Below, piece after piece: positions 38,900 through 51,752 of a stretch of 64,000 bases of DNA. Position numbers and translations under genes: made by a program. Position 1 is the first letter of the stretch. Each line of letters opens with the position of its first letter. Location of the stretch: NCBI RefSeq assembly GCF_008807415.1, contig NZ_CP043626.1:1612001-1676000 (forward strand). The letters run 5' to 3'. The notes under the pieces are model-generated. The model saw only the letters and a list, made by a program, of their open reading frames with translations. It was not told the origin of the DNA and made no database searches. This DNA comes from Pseudomonas denitrificans (nom. rej.). Its GTDB lineage: Bacteria > Pseudomonadota > Gammaproteobacteria > Pseudomonadales > Pseudomonadaceae.

Positions 38900-39940
38900 T
38901 CAGGAGGAAGGTGTCTTCGATGTGATGGGCGAAGCTCCTTGCACACGCCTTATCATCCGAATCTTCCACACCGTCTCCACAAACGGCCTAACGATCAGGC
39001 TCCACAGCGAAGAATACTTCTCGTCATCCTGCTCCCCGGCGCCGAACTGGATCGGCTCCGGCGCGCGCTGGGTGACGTAGAGCGTGCCGAACATCCAGTC
39101 CCACAGCGACAGGTTGATGCCGAAGTTCTTGTTGAAGTGGCGGGGCGCGTCGCTGTGGTGGATCTGGTGCTGGGCGGGGCTGTTCAGCACATGCTCGACC
39201 ACCGGGCCGAACGACAGCCACACGTGGCTGTGGCGCAGGTTCGTCGCCAGCACGTTGAACAGCAGGATCATGTAGGTCACGCCGAACAGCGTGTAGGCGC
39301 TGATCTCTCCGCCGCAGAGGTACCAGAAGGCGCCGGCATAGGCGCCCAGGGCGAAGGCGCCGGCCAGCTGCGCCGCCAGTTTCTCCACGAAGTGCACGCG
39401 GCTCGCGGTGATCGGCGTCAGCACCGCCGCCGAGTGATGCACCTTGTGGAACGCCCACAGCCAGCGCGAATGGAAGGCGCGGTGTACCCAGTAGTTCTTG
39501 AAGTCGCTGACCAGGAACACCCCCAGCCCGTAGAGAAGCGACAGGCCGAGGTTCGTCCCCACCTGCGGCCGCGCGCCCCAGAGATTGGTGAAGAAGGCGA
39601 TGTAGTCGCCCGAGCGCAGGATGTAGGGATCGACCAGCCCGACGATGGGCACCAGCAACGCCACATTGAGGATGCCGCGCACCAGGTAGTAGCGGTAATC
39701 CAGCAGCGCCGAGCGATGCAGGTTCACCCGGCTACCACCAATGAACTGCCAGAACGACGCCGCCTGCGTCAGCCCGCGCTGCCGGCGGAAGCGGAACAAT
39801 GCGTAGGCGATGGCGTAGGAGCACAGCAGGAACACCACGCCGACGCGGCCGCTGAGGTCGAACAGGCCGGCGACCTGATGGGTAATGGGGTTGATCACCC
39901 ACTCGGTGAAGTGGCGGTGGAGGTGCGAGAGGTCAGGCAT
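38900..39940 (-). CDS. Sterol desaturase / fatty acid hydroxylase superfamily membrane protein
   Basis: 346 residues with several membrane helices. The di-iron histidine clusters are visible: NYWVHRAFHSRWLWAFHKVH followed by H, then HSHVWL and QHQIHHSD. This is the FA_hydroxylase superfamily that hydroxylates or desaturates lipids in the inner membrane. Substrate unknown. A decayed copy of its 5' part lies at 45741-46037 in the same orientation, so the locus was duplicated at some time. The T6SS islet begins just downstream. Confidence 0.88.
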   Translation of the reverse strand: MPDLSHLHRHFTEWVINPITHQVAGLFDLSGRVGVVFLLCSYAIAYALFRFRRQRGLTQAASFWQFIGGSRVNLHRSALLDYRYYLVRGILNVALLVPIVGLVDPYILRSGDYIAFFTNLWGARPQVGTNLGLSLLYGLGVFLVSDFKNYWVHRAFHSRWLWAFHKVHHSAAVLTPITASRVHFVEKLAAQLAGAFALGAYAGAFWYLCGGEISAYTLFGVTYMILLFNVLATNLRHSHVWLSFGPVVEHVLNSPAQHQIHHSDAPRHFNKNFGINLSLWDWMFGTLYVTQRAPEPIQFGAGEQDDEKYSSLWSLIVRPFVETVWKIRMIRRVQGASPITSKTPSS

Positions 39941-40313
39941 GGGCGCTGGCGCCGGGAGTCAGGTGAACAGGCTTGTACGTCGAGTGACCGCCCACGGCGC
40001 TGAGGAGCCAGCGACTCATGGGGTGTTACGCGTTCGCTCAGCATGGAACCTGGAGGATCACGCTGTCAAAGTCCAGCGGTGCCGGGGCGGGGCAATTCGA
40101 CAGGGGGTCGTCAGCAGCCTGATGTGCGGAGGCGACTGGATTGGCCTGAAGCGGGGGCATCGATGAAGTGGGGTGGCGCCCGCACGGTGCATTAAGCCGG
40201 GGCGCAACCTTGAGGGAGTCGGCAAAGGAGCGACATCCGCGAAGCTGCAGGTTCCGCGCGAAGGGCAGGGTGAAGACGTTTGCCAGTCAGCAACGAGCCG
40301 CGTGGTTGACGGC
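39941..40313. other. 373-bp intergenic region
   Basis: No convincing ORF. On the minus strand TTTGACAGCGTGATCC at about 40063-40078 contains a TTGACA -35-like hexamer that could serve the desaturase gene, but the matching -10 is weak. No repeat family of this window is present here. Confidence 0.4.
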
Positions 40314-40919
40314 TCAGGCTGCTGTCGCCAATGGCTGCTGCTGTCGATCCAGCGTTTCCTGGAGTTCAGCCACTGAATCCAGGACTCGCTGCGCCCAGCG
40401 ATCATCGTCCGGACGCACGACAACGACGCGGAAGCCATGGTCATGGCCTTCGCTCTTCACGCCTTCGGAATCATCGACATGCAGATCGATATCGAATGCC
40501 GGCGGAAGTTTCGAGGGGGAGTTCGCCAGCCCGCGCTCGGTCAGGGCCTGGTTGTGCCGAACGCTGTTGACCACGCCGTCGACGTGGATGCCGTACAGCA
40601 ACAGCCAGCGCCTGATATAGGAGGGTGTGCGGCCGGAGGACGTGTAGACCCAGATGCTGCAGCCCTGGCGGCGCAGTTCCCGGGTCAGGGAGCGGGTGCC
40701 GAAACGCAGCGGTTCGCCAAGCCAGCGATGAATGAACACCGGGAGCCTGCTGGGTTCGACGTCGCTGTGGTGGGGGAGGCAGGCCAGGGTGTCATCGATA
40801 TCGAACGAAATCCGAATGCGCGGGCGTCCGAAGCGATAAGGCGCAAGGGAACCCTTCATGGCGTCCCACAGCTGATCCTTGATGGCCAGGCAGGTGGCGA
40901 GCATGGGTTGCGTACTCAT
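40314..40919 (-). CDS. HAD-like phosphatase domain protein
   Basis: 201 residues. The HAD motif I is RISFDIDDTLACLPH, with the nucleophilic and acid aspartates as DxDxT. Motif II may be IWVYTSSGRTPSY. DIDLHVDDSEGVKSEG near residue 150 supplies acidic motif IV residues. The substrate is unknown. The ATG shares one base with the stop of the Fic-like gene, and both follow pstB on the same strand with tight spacing, so phosphate-starvation expression by read-through from the Pho box is plausible. The C-terminus is glutamine-rich. Confidence 0.75.
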   Translation of the reverse strand: MSTQPMLATCLAIKDQLWDAMKGSLAPYRFGRPRIRISFDIDDTLACLPHHSDVEPSRLPVFIHRWLGEPLRFGTRSLTRELRRQGCSIWVYTSSGRTPSYIRRWLLLYGIHVDGVVNSVRHNQALTERGLANSPSKLPPAFDIDLHVDDSEGVKSEGHDHGFRVVVVRPDDDRWAQRVLDSVAELQETLDRQQQPLATAA

Positions 40920-41650
40920 CAGGCACCTCCCTGACAGGCGGAGGCGTGCTTCTCGCCAAGGAAAAATCGGTCCGGATCCGGTGAATGATCTTCGAGGAAG
41001 GCGGCGTACTTTTTCTTGATCTTGGGCAATTCAAATAGCGCCTTTACGCCATGCTTGGCGGAGTTGCGGATGACCGATGACGGGTTGTAGTAACCCTTGG
41101 CGTTGTCCAGGGTCAGCACGAACGGCGGCAGCCCGGCGCGTATCAGCAGATAGCTGACGATCAGCGAGCCGCTGCGATGGTTACCTTCGATGAACAATTG
41201 CGGTTTGCTCAGAATCCGCACGTAGACACCGGCAGCGCGCTTCCACACCGATTCGCTGTGATACGCGCAGTACCAGTTGTACAGGTCCTTGATGCCGCCT
41301 TCGACGTTGTTGAAGAAGTGCGCCTCGGTGGCTGCCAGGTGCGGCGCGAATTCCAGCCGACGGGCCGGGTCCCGGCCGCAAAGCACGGTGGCGTTGATCT
41401 CCAGCATCAGGTTGACCTGCTGCAGATCGAACAGGTCGACGCCCCGTGCGACGTAGTCGTCGATCAGGGCGTAACCCTCCAGCACGTTGTGCAGCACTTC
41501 ATCGGTGAACGGATCACGCGGCTCGGTAAAGCACTGGCTGAGCTCGCCGAAACGGCCTTGCACCTCACGCAGCGCACGTTCAATCGCTCGCAGATCAAGA
41601 CGGCGCGTGGCAGGCATGGGCAACCCTGACAAAGAGGTGTGTGGCTTCAT
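40919..41650 (-). CDS. Fic/DOC-like protein with degenerate active-site motif
   Basis: 243 residues; the start may instead be the ATG at 41617. The key segment reads SKPQLFIEGNHRSGSLIVSY. The canonical Fic motif is HPFxxGNGRxxR, so here the catalytic histidine position is Gln and the second glycine of GNG is His. EGN and the arginine remain. AMPylation as in standard Fic enzymes is therefore doubtful; a different nucleotidyl or phosphotransfer reaction, or an inactive scaffold, is possible. It starts 16 bases after the pstB stop and is coupled to the HAD gene. Confidence 0.68.
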   Translation of the reverse strand: MKPHTSLSGLPMPATRRLDLRAIERALREVQGRFGELSQCFTEPRDPFTDEVLHNVLEGYALIDDYVARGVDLFDLQQVNLMLEINATVLCGRDPARRLEFAPHLAATEAHFFNNVEGGIKDLYNWYCAYHSESVWKRAAGVYVRILSKPQLFIEGNHRSGSLIVSYLLIRAGLPPFVLTLDNAKGYYNPSSVIRNSAKHGVKALFELPKIKKKYAAFLEDHSPDPDRFFLGEKHASACQGGA

Positions 41651-44437: not shown

Positions 44438-45469
44438 TTACTGGATGTTGGCGGAAGCTTTGCGAACCTGATCGACGACTGCTTGCGGCAGCGGGATGTA
44501 GCCCATCGAATCAGCGATCTTCTGCCCTTCGGTCAGGCCGTACTCGACCATTTCACGCATGGCCTTGGCCTTGGCCGGGTTCTCGTTGTGCTTGCGGAAG
44601 ATCATCCAGGTGTAGGAGGTGATCGGGTAGGACTGGGCACCGTCCGGATCGGGCAGCCAGGCCACCAGGTTCTCCGGGAACTTCACGGCAGCCAGCGCCG
44701 CGGCACCGCTTTCTGCGTTCGGCACGACGTACTGGCCGGCCTTGTTCTGCAGCTGGGCGAAGTCGACCTTGGCCAGCTTGGCGAAGCCGTACTCGATGTA
44801 GCCGATGGCGCCCGGGGTCTGGCGCACGGTAGCGGTCACGCCATCGTTCTTCGGCGACTTGATGAACTTGTCGCTGGCCGGCCAGTTGACGGTGTTGCCT
44901 TCACCCAGGGCAGTCTTGAACTCCGGGTTGATGGTCGACATGTGCTTGGTGAACACAGCGGTGGTGCCGCTGGAATCCGCACGCACGACAACGGTGATCG
45001 GCAGGGCCGGCAGCTTCAGCTCAGGGTTGGCCGCGACGATCTGCGGGTCGTTCCACTGAGTGATCTTGCCCAGGAAGATGTTGGAGTAAACGTCGCGCGG
45101 CAGTTTCAGACCCTTGGGGCTGCCCGGCAGGTTGTACGCCAGGACGATTTCGCCGGCGGTCATCGGCAGCAGTTGCACGCCTTCGGCAACCTTGGCGATG
45201 TCCTCGTCCTTCATGGCCGAGTCACTGGCCGCGAAGTCCACAGTCTTGTTGAGGAAATCCTGTACGCCCGCACCGCTGCCCTTGGACTGGTAATCCACGG
45301 TGACGCCAGCGGTTTTCTTGCTGAAGTCCTTGAACCAGGTCAGGTAGATCGGAGCGGGGAAGCTGGCGCCAGAGCCGGTCAGGCGGACGCTCTCGTCGGC
45401 AAAGACGACGGAAGAGGCACACATGGACAGCGTTACGGCGATCGCAGCAGATTTCACAAAGCTTTTCAT
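44438..45469 (-). CDS. pstS: Periplasmic phosphate-binding protein
   Basis: 343 residues from ATG 45469, with a signal peptide (MKSFVKSAAIAVTLSMCASS, cut after VFA). Phosphate-site segments are TGSGASFPAPIYLTWFKDF, SKGSGAGVQDFLNKTVDFAA, and RADSSGTTAVFTKHMS. PIGYIEYG-like and CxxS segments are conserved. It delivers phosphate to PstCAB. Expression is expected to be PhoB-dependent from the Pho box 48 bases upstream. TTG three codons earlier is a possible but unlikely start. Confidence 0.95.
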   Translation of the reverse strand: MKSFVKSAAIAVTLSMCASSVVFADESVRLTGSGASFPAPIYLTWFKDFSKKTAGVTVDYQSKGSGAGVQDFLNKTVDFAASDSAMKDEDIAKVAEGVQLLPMTAGEIVLAYNLPGSPKGLKLPRDVYSNIFLGKITQWNDPQIVAANPELKLPALPITVVVRADSSGTTAVFTKHMSTINPEFKTALGEGNTVNWPASDKFIKSPKNDGVTATVRQTPGAIGYIEYGFAKLAKVDFAQLQNKAGQYVVPNAESGAAALAAVKFPENLVAWLPDPDGAQSYPITSYTWMIFRKHNENPAKAKAMREMVEYGLTEGQKIADSMGYIPLPQAVVDQVRKASANIQ

Positions 45470-45517
45470 CGAGGGCAATCCTTTTGATATCGGGCTGCCA
45501 TACTGTGATCGGGTCCT

Positions 45518-45535: not shown

Positions 45536-45740
45536 CGCGGTGGCAAGCGCTCTGGCTCGCCGGCTCGACTGGTCTATCTCCGGGCTTCTGCGATGCGCGT
45601 CAGGTTAATTTGCCGCGGCTGCGCGCCTTGGCTGGCGGCGATTTCGGGGCAGGGGCGGAGGTTCAGGGCGGGGATCTCCCGCCTACTCGATGAGCACGCT
45701 GCGCAATAAATAGTTACGGTCACTCGGCGGTGCAGACGTG

Positions 45741-46037
45741 GGTGAAGAAGGCGATGTAGTCGCCCGAGCGCGCGCGTATCAGGTAGTAGCGCTAATCCAG
45801 CGGCGCCGAGCGATGCCGCTACACCCGGTTGGCACCGATAAACTGCCAGAACGACGCCGCCTGCGTCAGCTCGCGTTGCCGGCGGAACCGGAACAGCACG
45901 TATGTGATTGCGTAGGAACACAGCAGTAGGACCATGCCGACGCGGCCGCTAAGTTCGAAGACACCAGTGACTTGGTTGGTGATCGGAGTAATCACCAGTT
46001 CTGTGAAATGCTAGCGGATGTGCGAGAGGTCAGGCAT
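45741..46037 (-). pseudogene. Decayed 5' copy of the sterol desaturase-like gene
   Basis: Reading from the ATG at 46037 gives MPDLSHIR, then TAG, HFTELVITPITNQVTGVFEL, SGRVGMVLLLCSYAITYVLF, FRQ-like residues, AASFWQFIGANRV, TAG, and D-TAG-RYYLIR, ending at SGDYIAFFT. The intact gene at 38900-39940 reads the same way with many identical residues. Three in-frame amber codons and an internal deletion (the segment before SGDYIAFFT is missing) show true decay rather than a sequencing error. The 3' three-quarters of the gene are gone. It lies just upstream of pstS. Confidence 0.85.
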
Positions 46038-46298
46038 GGAAGTTCCAGGCGCTGCTCGAGTGGCAGGTTGCCTATGCAGCACATGTCTCATGTGATACGC
46101 CTCGATTGCACCGGCCAATGCTGTCGCCGCCCAATGGATGTGGAGGCTATATTTGTAATATATATTGGATTCGAAGTTTTTTTATTTCCTTGATTTTGGT
46201 TGAAGAAGTGACTTTTGTCTAGAGGAAGGGCTATTTATTATTTCTCACTGAAATATAATCAATTATAGTTGCGCGTGAGTGGTCCTGTTGTTGAGGGG

Positions 46299-46321
46299 GC
46301 TCTACGCATGGGACGTAGAGC
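46299..46321. terminator. Hairpin between desaturase relic and nuclease-NTPase gene
   Basis: GCTCTACG-CATGGGA-CGTAGAGC, a perfect 8-bp stem, 11 bases past the stop of the minus-strand nuclease-NTPase gene. U-tract is poor. The region 46038-46298 is AT-rich and shows no ORF. Confidence 0.5.
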
Positions 46322-46331
46322 TTTCATGGTT

Positions 46332-48791
46332 TTATGTTCTGTTTCTTGGTCTTTGGGCGCTGCGCAGGACTTCCTCTTTTTCGATGTCAAAACTTTCTCT
46401 TATTTTTTGGGTGAATTTGGGTAGGTGTGCACCAAAATACTCTAACTCCTGTTCTTCTTCTTTTTCTAAGTATGAGATAAACGCCTCCGCCTTGGATATC
46501 CTAGTTCTCACTCGCTCTAATCTTTTTCGCGCGGTGAATAGTCTAAAGTCTTCGTTCGATAGAGAAACCATTTCATGCGCTTTGGCTTCGTTGAATATGC
46601 CGCAGTCAGTTGATATAAGTTCTATGTAGGTGAAGAACGATGAGAGTATGTTGAATATGTATAGCCCATAAGTTGTTATTTTTATGCTGTCCACGGCGTC
46701 GCAGTAAAAGTCAAGCCTATTATTTGACTCTACGAGATCTAGCTTTAGAAATATATCGAGATTCTTCTCAAGGTCTTCGATCATATTGAAATTCTCGGAG
46801 AAGTAGTCCTTGAACTCGCTTATTGATACATAGAATGGATTTGACGGGTCAATTCCGTCGGATAGCTTGTGTAATATTCGCATTCCTGTGAAGTGCGATC
46901 CGTTGGACTTTGATCTGATTTGAAATAGGTTGGGAATGCTGCTTTGTGATTCCTCATAGAAAAATCTATATGGGATCATTAGTGGCTTTAAGACTTGATG
47001 GATTTTTAACTTCCAGATTGTTTTGGATGATACCATCTCGTCGACACTTGTATATCCGGACTTTAGGAAGTCTCTAAATAGTTCTAATGCTAATCTAATA
47101 TTTCCATGGGCGCATGCGCTAAGGAAGTCATTGAGAGGCGAGTTGTTGCCCTGTCGGAATTCATTTTGAAAGATCCTGAATAACTTCTTGAATACATCGA
47201 TTTTGTGTTCTTTTTCTTTTTCTCCAAAAAACTCATCGCAGAAATCATCGCGCTCTAACATTGACTGGACGTAGTTTATGCGCTTTTCAAAAACAGCTTG
47301 TGCAACTGGGGAGCTAATATGGAATCCGGAATTTTGATAGGCGTCAAGCGTGCCATGTATCCTCGATGCGTGAAACCGCTCCTCCCTCATCGAGATGATG
47401 ACTAGGCACCCAAGCTGGTCGGCGATTTCTTGCGCGGTCGTGAAACAAAAATCTTGTAGGCTGTGGGGGAGTTGGTCAGTATTGTCGATGGCAATGACGC
47501 AACCCTTGTGCTTAATCTTCCAATATCCTACGAGTTTTTTTGCTACATATTTTTTATCATCCAGCCAGTTCCTTATCATCTTATTAAGTTCGAGGTTGTA
47601 AGCTTCGGATGTTTCGTTAAGACCGCAAAGTGTTTGTTTTTTTGCGAGGTCGAATTTGTCTGAAAATAGCTCTAAAAGTTTTTCTCGATCTGATTTTAGA
47701 ATTTCATCAACGTCAAGGTTGGAAATTACCTGCCCCCAGATCTTGTCGAATATTTGTTTTTCATCTTCAGGAGTATTCAAGAGATCGGCGATTGCCACTC
47801 GAGAATACTTGGAAAGGTATTGAGGTGGATTGTGGTAAAGTAGTTTTCTCAGGAAGGTTGATTTTCCTGCTCCTTTTCCTCCAAAAAGAACAATAACCTC
47901 CCCTTGTTTCTTTTCTTTTAGGCTTTTCGCAATGCGATTCCCGAAAATCCCCCCCTTGCCATTGTCCTCGGCTTGCTGGATACCTCTTTCTTCTAGGTAA
48001 GGTGTTAGCGAGTCCTTTATGAGTAGTCGGAAATTTGTGAATGCTGTTTCGTAGTCTCTCTGGCTTACATAGCATGACTCCATAAATTCTGGTTCGGAAA
48101 CGTCTATTGTGCCAAAGTATTTGTTGGCTAAAGGTCGCAGCTCACGGGCGTATCCGTTGGAACTGACTTCGTGGTCGTACGAGGCGATTTTGTCTTTCGG
48201 GTAAAATATTTCTCTGTTTTTTCTGACCATTCCGCCCAGTGCTGACTTTAAAGATCCTTCTTTGATGGCGCTGTAGCTGAGTATGTTCACTGCTTCAGTA
48301 AATTTTTCCGAGAAATATCTATTGCTCTTAATGGTGAGTGCTTTTAGATTTCTCCAGTTCTTCCCAGTTTCAAATGTCTTAAATAGTATCCATTCGTGAC
48401 CGTTTGTTATCCCGGCAAAATTACAACCTTCTTCCATGCAGTAGGTTCTTACCTGTTCTATTGCTGTTCGAATGTTGGTGTCGGTAAGAAGGGTCTGTAT
48501 TGTGATGTACTGAAATGGTTGGTCGCTATTGAAGTTGTGGGGGATATTAAAATAAATCCCTTCCTTCTTCGCTTCAATGAAAATCAAATCATCGCCATTG
48601 CTTCTTTTTAGTCTGTAGTCTGCGAAACCTGGAGAGATGAAGCTTTCATGTAATGTTTGATTGACTGGCCAGCCTAATACGCCATGTAGGATTTCATCAA
48701 TTATTTTATGCCGCGTATCAGCCTCGTTCAGTGTGCGAGCGTGCTCCATTTTGGCAATTCGGATAGCAATTTCATGAGGTCCTTCCGTCAT
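46332..48791 (-). CDS. HsdR-N-type nuclease fused to P-loop NTPase, candidate defence protein
   Basis: 819 residues from the ATG at 48791 (AAGGAATTAAG upstream). Residues ~15-75 look like the type I restriction HsdR N-terminal PD-(D/E)XK domain: ADTRHKIIDEILHGVLGWPV, then FADYRLKRSNGDDLIFIEAK. These give the D...ExK catalytic pattern. Near residue 300 is a Walker A, IVLFGGKGAGKSTFLRKLLY, and further on a Walker B-like GCVIAIDNTDQLPHSLQDFC and a sensor-like CLVIISMREERFHASRIHG. The C-terminus is helical, ending in a charged coiled coil (ERVRTRISKAEAFISYLEKE). Strongly AT-rich compared with neighbours, a sign of transfer. No methylase or specificity gene is adjacent. Probably a single-gene anti-phage nuclease/STAND-like ATPase; not one I can name. 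Confidence 0.7.
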   Translation of the reverse strand: MTEGPHEIAIRIAKMEHARTLNEADTRHKIIDEILHGVLGWPVNQTLHESFISPGFADYRLKRSNGDDLIFIEAKKEGIYFNIPHNFNSDQPFQYITIQTLLTDTNIRTAIEQVRTYCMEEGCNFAGITNGHEWILFKTFETGKNWRNLKALTIKSNRYFSEKFTEAVNILSYSAIKEGSLKSALGGMVRKNREIFYPKDKIASYDHEVSSNGYARELRPLANKYFGTIDVSEPEFMESCYVSQRDYETAFTNFRLLIKDSLTPYLEERGIQQAEDNGKGGIFGNRIAKSLKEKKQGEVIVLFGGKGAGKSTFLRKLLYHNPPQYLSKYSRVAIADLLNTPEDEKQIFDKIWGQVISNLDVDEILKSDREKLLELFSDKFDLAKKQTLCGLNETSEAYNLELNKMIRNWLDDKKYVAKKLVGYWKIKHKGCVIAIDNTDQLPHSLQDFCFTTAQEIADQLGCLVIISMREERFHASRIHGTLDAYQNSGFHISSPVAQAVFEKRINYVQSMLERDDFCDEFFGEKEKEHKIDVFKKLFRIFQNEFRQGNNSPLNDFLSACAHGNIRLALELFRDFLKSGYTSVDEMVSSKTIWKLKIHQVLKPLMIPYRFFYEESQSSIPNLFQIRSKSNGSHFTGMRILHKLSDGIDPSNPFYVSISEFKDYFSENFNMIEDLEKNLDIFLKLDLVESNNRLDFYCDAVDSIKITTYGLYIFNILSSFFTYIELISTDCGIFNEAKAHEMVSLSNEDFRLFTARKRLERVRTRISKAEAFISYLEKEEEQELEYFGAHLPKFTQKIRESFDIEKEEVLRSAQRPRNRT

Positions 48792-49181
48792 CTTAATTCC
48801 TTTTAGTTGGTCTGAAATACACAGGGTTGGCGTGGCTAGGTCTAGTTTCTCACGTTTATCGTTGCACCGATTGTGGCAGATGGCCATTTCGGCAATTTTG
48901 TTATCTTAATTGCTCGGCACGATAAGTCAAAGGCCGCAAATATCCTTGCTGAGCATGCCTGGGCTCCTGCTGAGATTAGTGCTTTTTATACGAGGCGTTA
49001 ATGTAGTTTGAAAACAACGTTTTAGGCTATGCGACATTGCTTGACCACCACATGTCCGCCCTTTAACCTCCGGCGTTCCCTTGTGAAAGCGACAGGGGCG
49101 GGTTTGGCGACCCGGTAAATCCACAGCGCGACCGCGCCCATAGCGCTGCGACGTATTCCTACGTTCGCAGTGCCTTGCTAT
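48792..49181. other. 390-bp region between nuclease-NTPase and C4-like RNA
   Basis: Holds the nuclease-NTPase promoter region. On the plus strand a short open frame reads GHFGNFVILIARHDKSKAAN and ILAEHAWAPAEISAFYTRR to a TAA at about 48999. It lacks a convincing start and may be a remnant or chance. Beyond about 49030 the composition returns to high GC. Confidence 0.35.
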
Positions 49182-49257
49182 GGCGGGCCGCGCAGGGAGA
49201 CCTTCGGGTCTGCCGGTCCTGTGGTGCCGGTTCGCCAACCTTGCGCGGTTCTGCCAC
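49182..49257 (+). ncRNA. Probable C4-type antisense RNA upstream of antirepressor gene
   Basis: GGCGGGCCGCGCAGGG at the 5' side can pair with ACCTTGCGCGGTTCTGCC at the 3' side (core CCGCGCA/TGCGCGG). Inside is a perfect AGACC-TTCG-GGTCT hairpin, then GCCGGTCCTGTGGTGCCGG. This layout and the GGTTCTGCCACC end resemble the phage P1/P4 C4 RNA family that silences antirepressor translation. The antirepressor-like gene starts 60 bases downstream, as expected. Confidence 0.6.
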
Positions 49258-49317
49258 CCCTACCGTTTGGCGACGGGGGAGTGGCCTTTTTGGACTCACC
49301 ACAAAGGTCTCAACTCC

Positions 49318-49791
49318 ATGGACGACATCTACGTTCCCACCGTTTTCCACCGCTACAACCGTTCCCTGCGCGGCGTGTTGATCGACAACCAGCCCTGGTT
49401 GGTCGCCCGCGAGCTGGGTTATCTGATCCGCGAGCGGGTCGATGCTTATGTTCTTCGATTGGATGAGGACCTCTTTCGCGAGGCGCGCCTGGTGACGGGT
49501 GGCGGCGAGGAGGTCGTGTTGCTGGTGAATGACTTCGGCACCTTCCATGTGCTGCACCGTTATCGCGATCCGGAGCATCGGCAGTTGCGGATGTGGATCA
49601 CCGGCCATGTGCTGCCGACGCTCAGGGATCAGGAGCGGGTGGCGGCGGGGTTGCCGAGGCGGATGCTGGCGAAAGGCGAGGGGCGGTCGTTGGCGGTGCT
49701 GGATTGGCAGGGGGAGTACTGGGTGCCGATGGGGGAGGTGCCGCGGTTGATGCGCGAGGAGAGGCGCGGGAGATGGTGGCGGCGGGAGTAG
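49318..49791 (+). CDS. BRO-N domain protein, phage antirepressor-like
   Basis: 157 residues from ATG 49318. The N-terminal half is BRO-N-like: FHRYNRSLRGVLIDNQPWLV, ARELGYLI, and NDFGTFHVLHRYRDPEHRQL, then WITGHVLPTL. In phages such proteins relieve repressor control. The C-terminal part is short and arginine-rich (LMREERRGRWWRRE), so the KilA-C or Ant domain of full antirepressors is missing. No other phage genes are near, so this is probably a domesticated or leftover prophage gene, kept with its C4-like RNA. Confidence 0.72.
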   Translation: MDDIYVPTVFHRYNRSLRGVLIDNQPWLVARELGYLIRERVDAYVLRLDEDLFREARLVTGGGEEVVLLVNDFGTFHVLHRYRDPEHRQLRMWITGHVLPTLRDQERVAAGLPRRMLAKGEGRSLAVLDWQGEYWVPMGEVPRLMREERRGRWWRRE

Positions 49792-49877
49792 GGCGCACAG
49801 ATGTAGGAGAGCGCCTTTCGGCGCTGGTCGCGGGCATGGGCTAGACGCCCCCGCCGCTCCTACACAAGAGCAAGAGC

Positions 49878-49917
49878 CCCTCACCCTAACCCTCTCCCGC
49901 AAGCGGGAGAGGGGACC
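49878..49917. repeat. CCCTCTCCC/GGGAGAGGG palindrome (copy 1)
   Basis: CTCACCCTAACCCTCTCCCG, CAAGCGGGAGAGGGGACC. Further members at 51536-51567 and 51697-51742 in the next intergenic region. Confidence 0.75.
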
Positions 49918-49975
49918 GTCAGGTGTGAGTCATGCAGTGGTGTTAGCCGGATAGGGCTTGATTGGCGTTTGCCAA

Positions 49976-51247
49976 TCAAGCAGCCGGCGGGGTGCCTTCG
50001 GCGTTGGCGACCACGGCGTCGATCTGGATCAGCGCGCCTTTGGGCAATGCACCTACGGCTACCGTCCGGCGGGCGGGGACGCCGCCGGGGAAGTAGCTGG
50101 CGTACACCTCATCGACGGCGGCAATGTCGTCGATGTTTTTCAGGTAGAGGTTGACCTTCACCACATCGGCCAGGGTGTGGTCGATGCTTTCGACAATGGC
50201 CTTGAGGTGCTTGAAGCACTGGCTGGCCTGTTCCTTGATGCCGCCGGCCACCAGCTCACCGGTCTTCACGTCCAGCGGCAGCTGGGCGGAGATGTGGTTG
50301 TAGTGGGAGAAGGCGACGGTCTGGGTGGAGTAGGGGCACTTCGGTGCGGCGCTGGTGTTGTGCGCCTTGATGACGATGCCGTGGCGGTCTTCGACGGCTT
50401 GCGGGGGCGTGCCGTCGCCGTGGGAGACCACGGCCTCGACCTGCACCAGGGCATCCATCGGCAGGGCTTGCGCCTGTACCACGGTGCGTGCCGGCACGTA
50501 GCCGACGGCGCGGGCGATGGCCGAGTCGGGGAAGAAGGTGGTGTAGACCTGGTTCACGGCCTGCATGTCGGCGAGGTTCTTGACGAAGACGGTGATGCGC
50601 ACGATGTCATCGAAGGGCACGTCGATGCTTTCGAGGATGGTCTTGATGTTGCGCAGGCACTGCCGGGTCTGCTCCTCGACGCCGCCGGCCACCAGCTTCC
50701 CGGTGCGCGGGTCGATGGGCAGCTGGGCGCTGAGGTTGTTGTAGTGGGAGAAGGCGACGGTCTGGGTGGACAGCGGGCTCAGCGGCGCGCTCTCGGTGTT
50801 GCGTTCGACCTTGATCAGGTCGCCGGCCTGCGGGGCGTTGGGGATGGTGCCTTCGCCGCAGGTGATGAGCGCCTCGACCTGTACCTGGGCGCCCAGCGGC
50901 AGGGCGGCCACACCGACAGTGGTGAGCGTCGGCAGGTAGTTGGGGAAGAAGGCAGCGTGCACCTTGGCGACGGCTTCGGTGTCAGCGATGTTGGTCAGGA
51001 AGATGGAGATGCGGACGGTGTCGTTCAGGCTGTGGCCGATGCTTTCGACGACGGCCTTGAGGTTCCTGTAGCACTGTTCGGCCTGTTCCTTGGCGCCACC
51101 GGCCACCAGCTTGCCGCTGCTCGGGTCGACCGGCAGCTGGGCGGAAAGGTTGTTGTAGTGGGAGAAGGCGACGGTTTGGGCGTAGGGGCCGAGGTTTTGC
51201 GGGGCCTTGTCGGTGTTACGTGCCAGAACTGCGTTGTAGCCACTCAT
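49976..51247 (-). CDS. Triple-RidA-domain fusion protein
   Basis: 423 residues made of three RidA/YjgF/UK114 domains (about residues 1-140, 141-285, 286-423). Each has the same opening, TQTVAFSHYNNLSAQLP or QTVAFSHYNHISAQLP, and a GKLVAGG or GELVAGG segment. RidA enzymes hydrolyse reactive enamine/imine intermediates and normally are ~130-residue trimers, so this is a covalent trimer in one chain. The arginine equivalent to E. coli RidA Arg105 is present in domains 2 (VPARTVV) and 3 (VPARRTV) but is Leu in domain 1 (LPTLTTV). Start supported by AAGGGAG upstream. Flanked by repeats; apparently monocistronic. Confidence 0.88.
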   Translation of the reverse strand: MSGYNAVLARNTDKAPQNLGPYAQTVAFSHYNNLSAQLPVDPSSGKLVAGGAKEQAEQCYRNLKAVVESIGHSLNDTVRISIFLTNIADTEAVAKVHAAFFPNYLPTLTTVGVAALPLGAQVQVEALITCGEGTIPNAPQAGDLIKVERNTESAPLSPLSTQTVAFSHYNNLSAQLPIDPRTGKLVAGGVEEQTRQCLRNIKTILESIDVPFDDIVRITVFVKNLADMQAVNQVYTTFFPDSAIARAVGYVPARTVVQAQALPMDALVQVEAVVSHGDGTPPQAVEDRHGIVIKAHNTSAAPKCPYSTQTVAFSHYNHISAQLPLDVKTGELVAGGIKEQASQCFKHLKAIVESIDHTLADVVKVNLYLKNIDDIAAVDEVYASYFPGGVPARRTVAVGALPKGALIQIDAVVANAEGTPPAA

Positions 51248-51752
51248 GTTGGTGCTCCCTTGTTCGCTGGGAATCCGTGGATTGGGTGGCAAACGCTTCG
51301 TCCATTGCGATATCGGTCGTTGCCACTATCGGTTCAGACGACGGATATCAAGCTCGTCGAGAGGCGCGCAGACTATCGAGTCTTGAAGGGTGACCCCTTT
51401 GACTTATGGCAAGCGTAGTGGGGTCTTCTTACCGGGTTGTTTCAATTGGCGATGGGATTTGGTCGGGATATTTCGAAAGGGATATCTGAAAGTGGGGTGG
51501 TGGTTTTTGTGGAGGTCCGGTGCCTGGGCTTTCCCTCACCCCAGCCCTCTCCCAGAGGGAGAGGGGGCAGTCTGTGCCGGCTGGCAGTTTGGTTTTATCC
51601 TGTAGGACCCTCTCCCCAGCCCTGGCTGCGCGCCCTGCTCCGAAGGGGGAGGGAGCGATCGTGCCGGCTGATGATGTGGGTTCTCCTTGCGCCGAACGGT
51701 CCCCTCTCCCTTCAGGGAGAGGGTTAGGGAGAGGGCGCTTTCCGGCCGCCTA
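51248..51752. other. 505-bp intergenic region with CCCTCTCCC palindromes
   Basis: Contains at least two GGGAGAGGG-type inverted repeats (51536-51567 and 51697-51742) and a third diverged element at 51604-51653. ORFs across this region are repeat-derived. The part 51300-51420 may hold the promoter of the RidA gene; no clear motif. Confidence 0.6.

Follow-up and report, generated by a model that had tools for sequence, protein, structure and literature searches.

Gene organization at the locus

The locus carries an intact open reading frame (ORF) for an 819-aa protein on the minus strand (Table 1), opening with ATG and free of internal stops in translation, that joins a predicted HsdR-N nuclease domain to a P-loop NTPase in one stand-alone gene. 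Throughout, "the window" denotes the whole 64,000-nucleotide stretch that was analysed, corresponding to positions 1,612,001 to 1,676,000 of a single-contig genome of 6.88 Mb. The longest mechanical ORF begins farther upstream, at 48887; the start at 48791 is the likelier one because the starts of homologues roughly coincide with it in an alignment of 40 homologues, and because the ATG is preceded by the motif AAAAGGA, presumably a ribosome-binding site. Compared with an 80%-identical homologue the gene has a dN of 0.137, with synonymous sites saturated, in line with strong constraint. Counts of promoters and terminators were close to chance.

The gene occupies a variable slot. To the left, the conserved flank ends upstream of pstS (44438-45478, identified by a PDB match), and between the same flanks four relatives (G010, G023, G013, and G006) carry other ORFs. 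In the window, the slot holds only the nuclease-NTPase gene and the relic of a second gene. No further ORF of at least 250 aa lies between 45574 and 49902, and neither HsdM nor HsdS adjoins the gene. Within the relic, 45773-46039 shares 81% identity with the start of ORF 38900-39940 (39676-39942); by eye that ORF encodes a sterol-desaturase-like membrane protein, and it has no PDB match. The coding sequence has a G+C content of 0.413, and the window, the slot excepted, one of 0.651. The preliminary description had thus read the surroundings correctly as to strong AT richness, a missing methylase or specificity partner, and a decayed gene copy on one side. Its phage-type element on the other side stands in part: ORF 49180-49791 is there, but its match to Bro-N reaches 19.9 bits, below the cut-off of 25.6.

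Table 1. Position of the gene, its predicted domains and motifs, and the features of the slot (window coordinates)
Feature	Coordinates	Strand	Basis
CDS, 819 aa, stand-alone HsdR-N nuclease and ORC/STAND-like NTPase	46332..48791	minus	ORF, full-length homologues, alignment of 40 homologues
Likely ribosome-binding site AAAAGGA	48798..48804	minus	6 bases before ATG; direct sequence read
PD-(D/E)XK (HsdR-N type) nuclease domain, residues 21-160	48312..48731	minus	Pfam matches of close relatives; helix-strand order in model
Putative catalytic D58	48618..48620	minus	conservation; role inferred
Putative catalytic E73-A-K75	48567..48575	minus	conservation; role inferred
QxxxY motif, Q113-Y117	48441..48455	minus	conservation
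ORC/STAND-type P-loop NTPase with lid, residues 213-620	46932..48155	minus	model; Foldseek; VIA-align
Walker A GGKGAGKST, residues 304-312	47856..47882	minus	sequence and alignment of 40 homologues
Walker B AIDNTD, residues 434-439	47475..47492	minus	conservation of D436, N437, D439
Most conserved of nine stretches compared, residues 598-645	46857..47000	minus	between lid and winged helix
Winged-helix-like domain, residues 646-716	46644..46856	minus	inferred: secondary-structure elements and their order resemble ORC/STAND proteins
C-terminal helices, residues 717-819, and stop	46332..46643	minus	structure model
Variable slot	45734..49063		flanks conserved to 45733, again from ~49033-49064, in relatives with other genes
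Relic of 5' end of sterol-desaturase-like gene (label by eye)	45773..46061		inside left border of slot
Bro-N-like ORF, right neighbour of slot	49180..49791	plus	Pfam below cut-off; matched in relatives

Several observations concern the wider surroundings. Two relatives (L029 and L030) have the sterol-desaturase-like gene adjoining the RidA-type ORF, with no pst block there. Part of the Bro-N-like ORF (~49178-49412) has many matches at ~69-76% identity in genomes of the genus, as if it belonged to a multicopy family, and a stretch of ~70 bases (~49854-49925) is dispersed in many of these genomes, mostly at 86-100% identity, as an interspersed repeat. ORF 49976-51292 (minus strand) gives three successive RidA/YjgF-type matches (~26-147, 162-292, and 306-430) and so resembles a triple RidA-like fusion, while an ORF of 243 aa beside the pst genes (40919-41650) matches Fic with 14.1 bits (cut-off 24). 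Beside the same right flank, relative G006 has an AT-rich run of four ORFs (L028, 8078-11507; GC 0.43-0.45), and relative G022 an insertion of GC 0.38-0.44 (L036, 4224-7561) with, all by eye, a 701-aa protein with a GNAT-like start, a small ASCH-like ORF, and an HNH-like ORF; both insertions are possibly further defence cargo.

Domain architecture and conserved active sites

The N-terminal domain is predicted, from relatives' profiles and conserved motifs, to be an HsdR-type PD-(D/E)XK nuclease. The D...ExK pattern that had been placed near residues 50-75 corresponds to D58, E73, and K75. In the alignment of 40 homologues (drawn from 120 listed sequences, with at least 725 found) D58 is kept in 39 of 40, and E73, K75, Q113, and Y117 in all 40. 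A wider set of 30 sequences retains D58, E73, K75, and Y117 in 29/29 readable rows and Q113 in 26/29, with E in the remainder; three incomplete proteins (L085, L117, and L122) were counted only where readable. Among 28 members from viral contigs, D58, E73, K75, and Y117 are present in all 27 readable rows, and position 113 is Q in 14 of these and E in 13. Four out of four close relatives scanned (L039, P0101, P0088, and P0065) match HSDR_N or HSDR_N_2 above the Pfam cut-off; the window protein itself scores 12.4 bits against HSDR_N_2, under the cut-off of 25. Modelled alone (three sequences), the nuclease domain attained a pLDDT of 46.8; the PD-(D/E)XK fold is therefore assigned from profiles, motifs, and the order of secondary-structure elements. 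The top match in a viral structure library was weak and is named for the HsdR N-terminal domain.

The second active site is equally well kept. K310 of the Walker A motif and D436, N437, and D439 of the Walker B motif occur in 40/40 sequences of the alignment and in 30/30 of the wider set; in the viral-contig members K310 is found in 28/28, and the three Walker B residues in 27/27 readable rows. Since catalytic and Walker residues are kept in 39 or 40 of the 40 aligned homologues, the motif pattern is not a product of chance. Both active sites remain nearly invariant across aligned relatives down to 18-24% identity. The motifs GGKGAGKST and AIDNTD, the fusion of the two domains, and the helical C-terminus had all been proposed beforehand and are recovered here from the intact ORF, the relatives' profiles, and the structure model.

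Structure prediction, one of the checks that the preliminary description had recommended, places the NTPase near the ORC/Cdc6-STAND type. The nearest folds are Cdc6/ORC, CED-4 (8jns, Foldseek E 3.7e-5), plant NLRs (NRC1 NB-ARC, 8bv0, 6.2e-5), and RADAR RdrA, with TnsC also among the structural matches; ORC/Cdc6 structures score equal to or above the STAND matches in both Foldseek and VIA-align. Because the folds of ORC, TnsC, and STAND NTPases are related to one another, the match does not choose the sub-type. Between lid and winged helix, 40% of the alignment columns of residues 598-645 are invariant. Beyond the winged helix, the model shows roughly 100 residues that form helices. The C-terminal part is conserved about as well as the rest of the protein, an evenness that, on the aligned sequences, would be unlike a fast-evolving protein sensor.

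A large superfamily with variable tails

The protein search found at least 725 relatives at E<=1e-3. Among the 119 relatives listed besides the query, identity ranges from 49 to 90%, and 117 align over at least 95% of the query. A second sub-family is about 24% identical, and its E. coli members are annotated as 'P-loop NTPase fold protein'. Profile comparison of the window's sub-family with these E. coli-type proteins (27 of 120 listed sequences, 419 found) joins the two with an hhalign probability of 100% over 784 columns, and the superfamily is a large one. The tails differ among its members: an S1 domain sits at the C-terminus of four relatives scanned from one clade (L061, L129, L133, and L136), and an Acinetobacter plasmid member has a cold-shock domain there. 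Both are nucleic-acid-binding OB folds. Pfam finds neither in the window protein.

Library searches return no name for the family. The window protein has 17 Pfam matches at E<=1, AAA_22 among them with an E-value of 0.00037 that lies under its cut-off; no Pfam or NCBIfam model reaches its cut-off, and NCBIfam comes nowhere near. The profile search recommended earlier, run against PADLOC 2023, yielded a single match, mad8, at 15.5 bits over the P-loop region, hence no strong match to a named system, in keeping with the initial failure to assign one. Distant relatives match DrmMI with 21-24 bits (L056, L041, and L119) and PDC-M54B with 20 bits (L056) over the nuclease region; these matches are local and weak, and we read them as shared HsdR-N-like domains, not as membership of those systems. 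A PDB sequence search with the protein or the alignment gave P-loop segments and chance matches only. The kind of protein, a nuclease joined to a STAND/AAA+ ATPase, is already known; the libraries and literature searched contain no name for this family. Open-access titles and abstract openings do not name the architecture (preprints and most subscription papers lay outside this scope), and 'HsdR' does not occur in the main text of a paper on P. aeruginosa hotspots (PMC10250203). According to the part consulted of the DefensePredictor paper (PMC13092281), it lists 31 further systems, 13 with PD-(D/E)XK domains and 7 with P-loop NTPases, and a homologue of the window gene may be among them. Likewise, the hotspot cargo tables of Rousset et al. 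2022 (PMC9122126) may list relatives.

Distribution and gene neighbourhoods

The window gene is a sporadic single-gene unit of foreign base composition. Within its genus it is present in 1 of 25 genomes, its own; a genome of the same species lacks the gene, but in that genome the flanks have no strong matches either. A single-sequence search found it in 1/369 genomes of the class, and a profile search in 9/390 genomes of the order and 4/398 of the phylum, the own genome included each time; in the genus of G745, a member of the same family, 10/398 genomes had it by single-sequence search, the own genome not included. As scoring was limited to two candidates per genome in the order, class, phylum, and G745-genus searches, these counts may be low. 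Among plasmids there are 30 matching records, and in 20 of these the match spans 80% or more of the protein. A Pantoea plasmid that also carries integrating-conjugative-element genes has the homologue next to a tyrosine recombinase, and on rhizobial plasmids homologues are situated near IS elements.

Twenty other loci of the 21 collected were compared (L001 was dropped, being on the same contig as L074). The G+C content of the gene is below that of its flanks in all 20, by 0.13 on average. At 15 of 18 loci (L082 and L085 have no gene on one side) no ORF on the same strand lies within 60 bases of the gene, a count that, like the neighbour counts below, comes from a simple ORF caller and may include false ORFs. 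The neighbours comprise 112 proteins and were set against 112 of 114 control proteins. They match 75 PADLOC families versus 12 for the control, counted as families and not as proteins; each family has at most two members in either set, and most of the 25 families shown for the neighbours are methylase models with one member each. Counted in this way, the comparison does not clearly favour an association with defence islands. Of the 101 Pfam families matched by the relatives' neighbours, the 25 shown include one C-5 methylase. Phage integrases amount to 5/112 neighbours versus at most 1/112 control proteins (none is found among the ten control Pfam families with two or more members), a hint of an integrase excess beside the relatives.

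Distant relatives in prophages

The gpA-gpQ interval of P2-like prophages is an anti-phage hotspot with tested systems, according to the consulted part of Rousset et al. 2022 (PMC9122126). Of 28 viral-contig loci with a member of the superfamily, nine have it between P2 gpA and gpQ (L114, L119, L129, L131, L133, L136, L138, L140, and L141), and five more (L115, L118, L130, L135, and L137) show gpA or gpQ beside the gene. PHROGs identified portal, terminase, and head proteins along with gpA at L114, and a portal protein at L118. These records are not all independent, since L140 and L141 look like near copies, and other ORFs may lie within the same intervals. Two clades are found there, the E. 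coli-type clade and a clade whose three scanned members have S1 tails, and the members are only 21-25% identical to the window protein in local alignments. The defence role proposed at the outset thus gains from distant relatives in a published prophage hotspot, but searches of phage records and viral contigs, at the sensitivity applied, did not recover the sub-family to which the window protein itself belongs. Phage records gave no match to E. coli-type or Acinetobacter-type queries either, and a DNA search of E. coli genomes with the Pantoea homologue found none.

Among 5426 E. coli genomes, a DNA search found E. coli-type members in 8. The two contexts inspected both lie in a Rac-like prophage; there the gene stands alone, oriented opposite to its neighbours, between DUF1367 and DUF977 genes. 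At this place other E. coli strains have a Sll1717-family ATPase between DUF1367 and DUF1627 genes (L112) or an FRG-domain gene adjoining the DUF977 gene (L113), and we regard the DUF1367/DUF977 region as a candidate hotspot for prophage cargo. At L117 (7914-10450) a prophage carries the E. coli-type gene broken into two ORFs, both of 385 aa.

Possible function

The window gene is probably an anti-phage gene, and the reading that we favour, with fair though limited confidence, is a putative single-gene, ATP-gated switch with a triggered nuclease directed against phages or mobile elements. The ORC/STAND-type NTPase, together with the winged helix and the helical tail, would sense some feature that appears upon infection; ATP binding would then lead to rearrangement or oligomerisation of the protein, bringing HsdR-type PD-(D/E)XK domains together to cut either the invader's DNA or that of the whole cell. 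The gene itself would travel alone, as cargo of mobile elements.

A rather unlikely but still serious alternative dispenses with the protein trigger: an ORC/TnsC-like NTPase would load on particular DNA structures (ends, forks, or single strands), and the nuclease would cut DNA without some host feature, making the protein a methylase-free restriction enzyme and not an immune receptor, though still a means of defence. It draws on the DNA-loading Cdc6/ORC and TnsC proteins, which the NTPase matches as much as the NLRs, on a C-terminal part that is conserved and not variable, and on the S1 and cold-shock tails of relatives; the window protein, however, has no such domain, and the kinship of the ORC, TnsC, and STAND folds keeps the match from discriminating. 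Taken together, the triggered switch and the DNA-structure machine make a putative defence against phages or mobile elements highly probable.

Outside defence proper, the gene might serve its carrier element, by excluding rival plasmids or prophages or by stabilisation, with no general anti-phage role. The 30 plasmid records, the one Pantoea plasmid with integrating-conjugative-element genes, and the members in prophages would suit such a role, which we nevertheless think improbable: the slot in the window holds the gene and a relic alone, and an operon partner is usually absent. A nuclease with an AAA+-like NTPase is also a frequent combination in repair, and a host enzyme of DNA repair or recombination has to be considered on that account. 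Against it speak the occurrence in a single genome of 25 in the genus, in 9/390 of the order, and in 4/398 of the phylum, the foreign base composition, and the other genes found at the same site in relatives; a repair function is most improbable.

A broader conjecture, which we offer as possible though on balance doubtful, is that of a large and unnamed superfamily whose members, compact immune nucleases encoded by single genes, would combine the HsdR-type nuclease with the ORC/STAND-type NTPase and repeatedly enter prophage defence hotspots. Their exchangeable C-terminal sensor (helical, S1, or cold-shock) would perceive nucleic acids made during infection, not phage proteins. A confirmed defence role would enlarge the set of single-gene defence proteins by a widespread family in which the nucleases of type I restriction are linked with the ORC/NLR switch fold. 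Its clades with differing tails (helices, S1, cold-shock) would amount to a natural experiment for learning which signals the switch responds to, and the members in the P2 hotspot could be used directly as a laboratory model.

Comparison with known systems

Several known systems share parts of this architecture or its genomic position. KAP NTPases are approached by three E. coli-type relatives (L056, L041, and L119), which match KAP_NTPase with 25.6-28.7 bits (cut-off 20), whereas the window protein has no match to that Pfam family at E<=1, and its Walker B sequence DNxD differs from the usual KAP form. RdrA of RADAR, one of the nearest folds, works with the deaminase RdrB and is not known to have an HsdR-type nuclease such as that predicted for the window protein. 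With the old/tin cargo of P2 the distant relatives share the gpA-gpQ interval; the likeness described here is one of position.

GiPD474, a single-gene defence ATPase of Gifsy, was considered and set aside: it is ParA-like with its Walker A motif at 29-34, and no nuclease domain is seen in the part of its description consulted (PMC12724215). Avs and other nuclease-STAND proteins, discussed in the same source, have in common with the window protein the N-terminal nuclease, the STAND-like NTPase, the winged helix, and the single-gene format. The long C-terminal repeat sensor of the Avs type is missing from the window protein, which matches no Pfam repeat family at E<=1 and none of the Avs models of PADLOC.

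With HsdR (HSDR_N, PF04313/PF13588) the protein shares the N-terminal PD-(D/E)XK domain with its D...ExK and QxxxY motifs. A remnant of a type I restriction-modification system is ruled out by the lack of a motor (no SF2 helicase family is among the 17 Pfam matches) and of adjacent partners, and the principal difference lies in the engine: where HsdR has an SF2 translocase motor, the window protein has an ORC/STAND NTPase.
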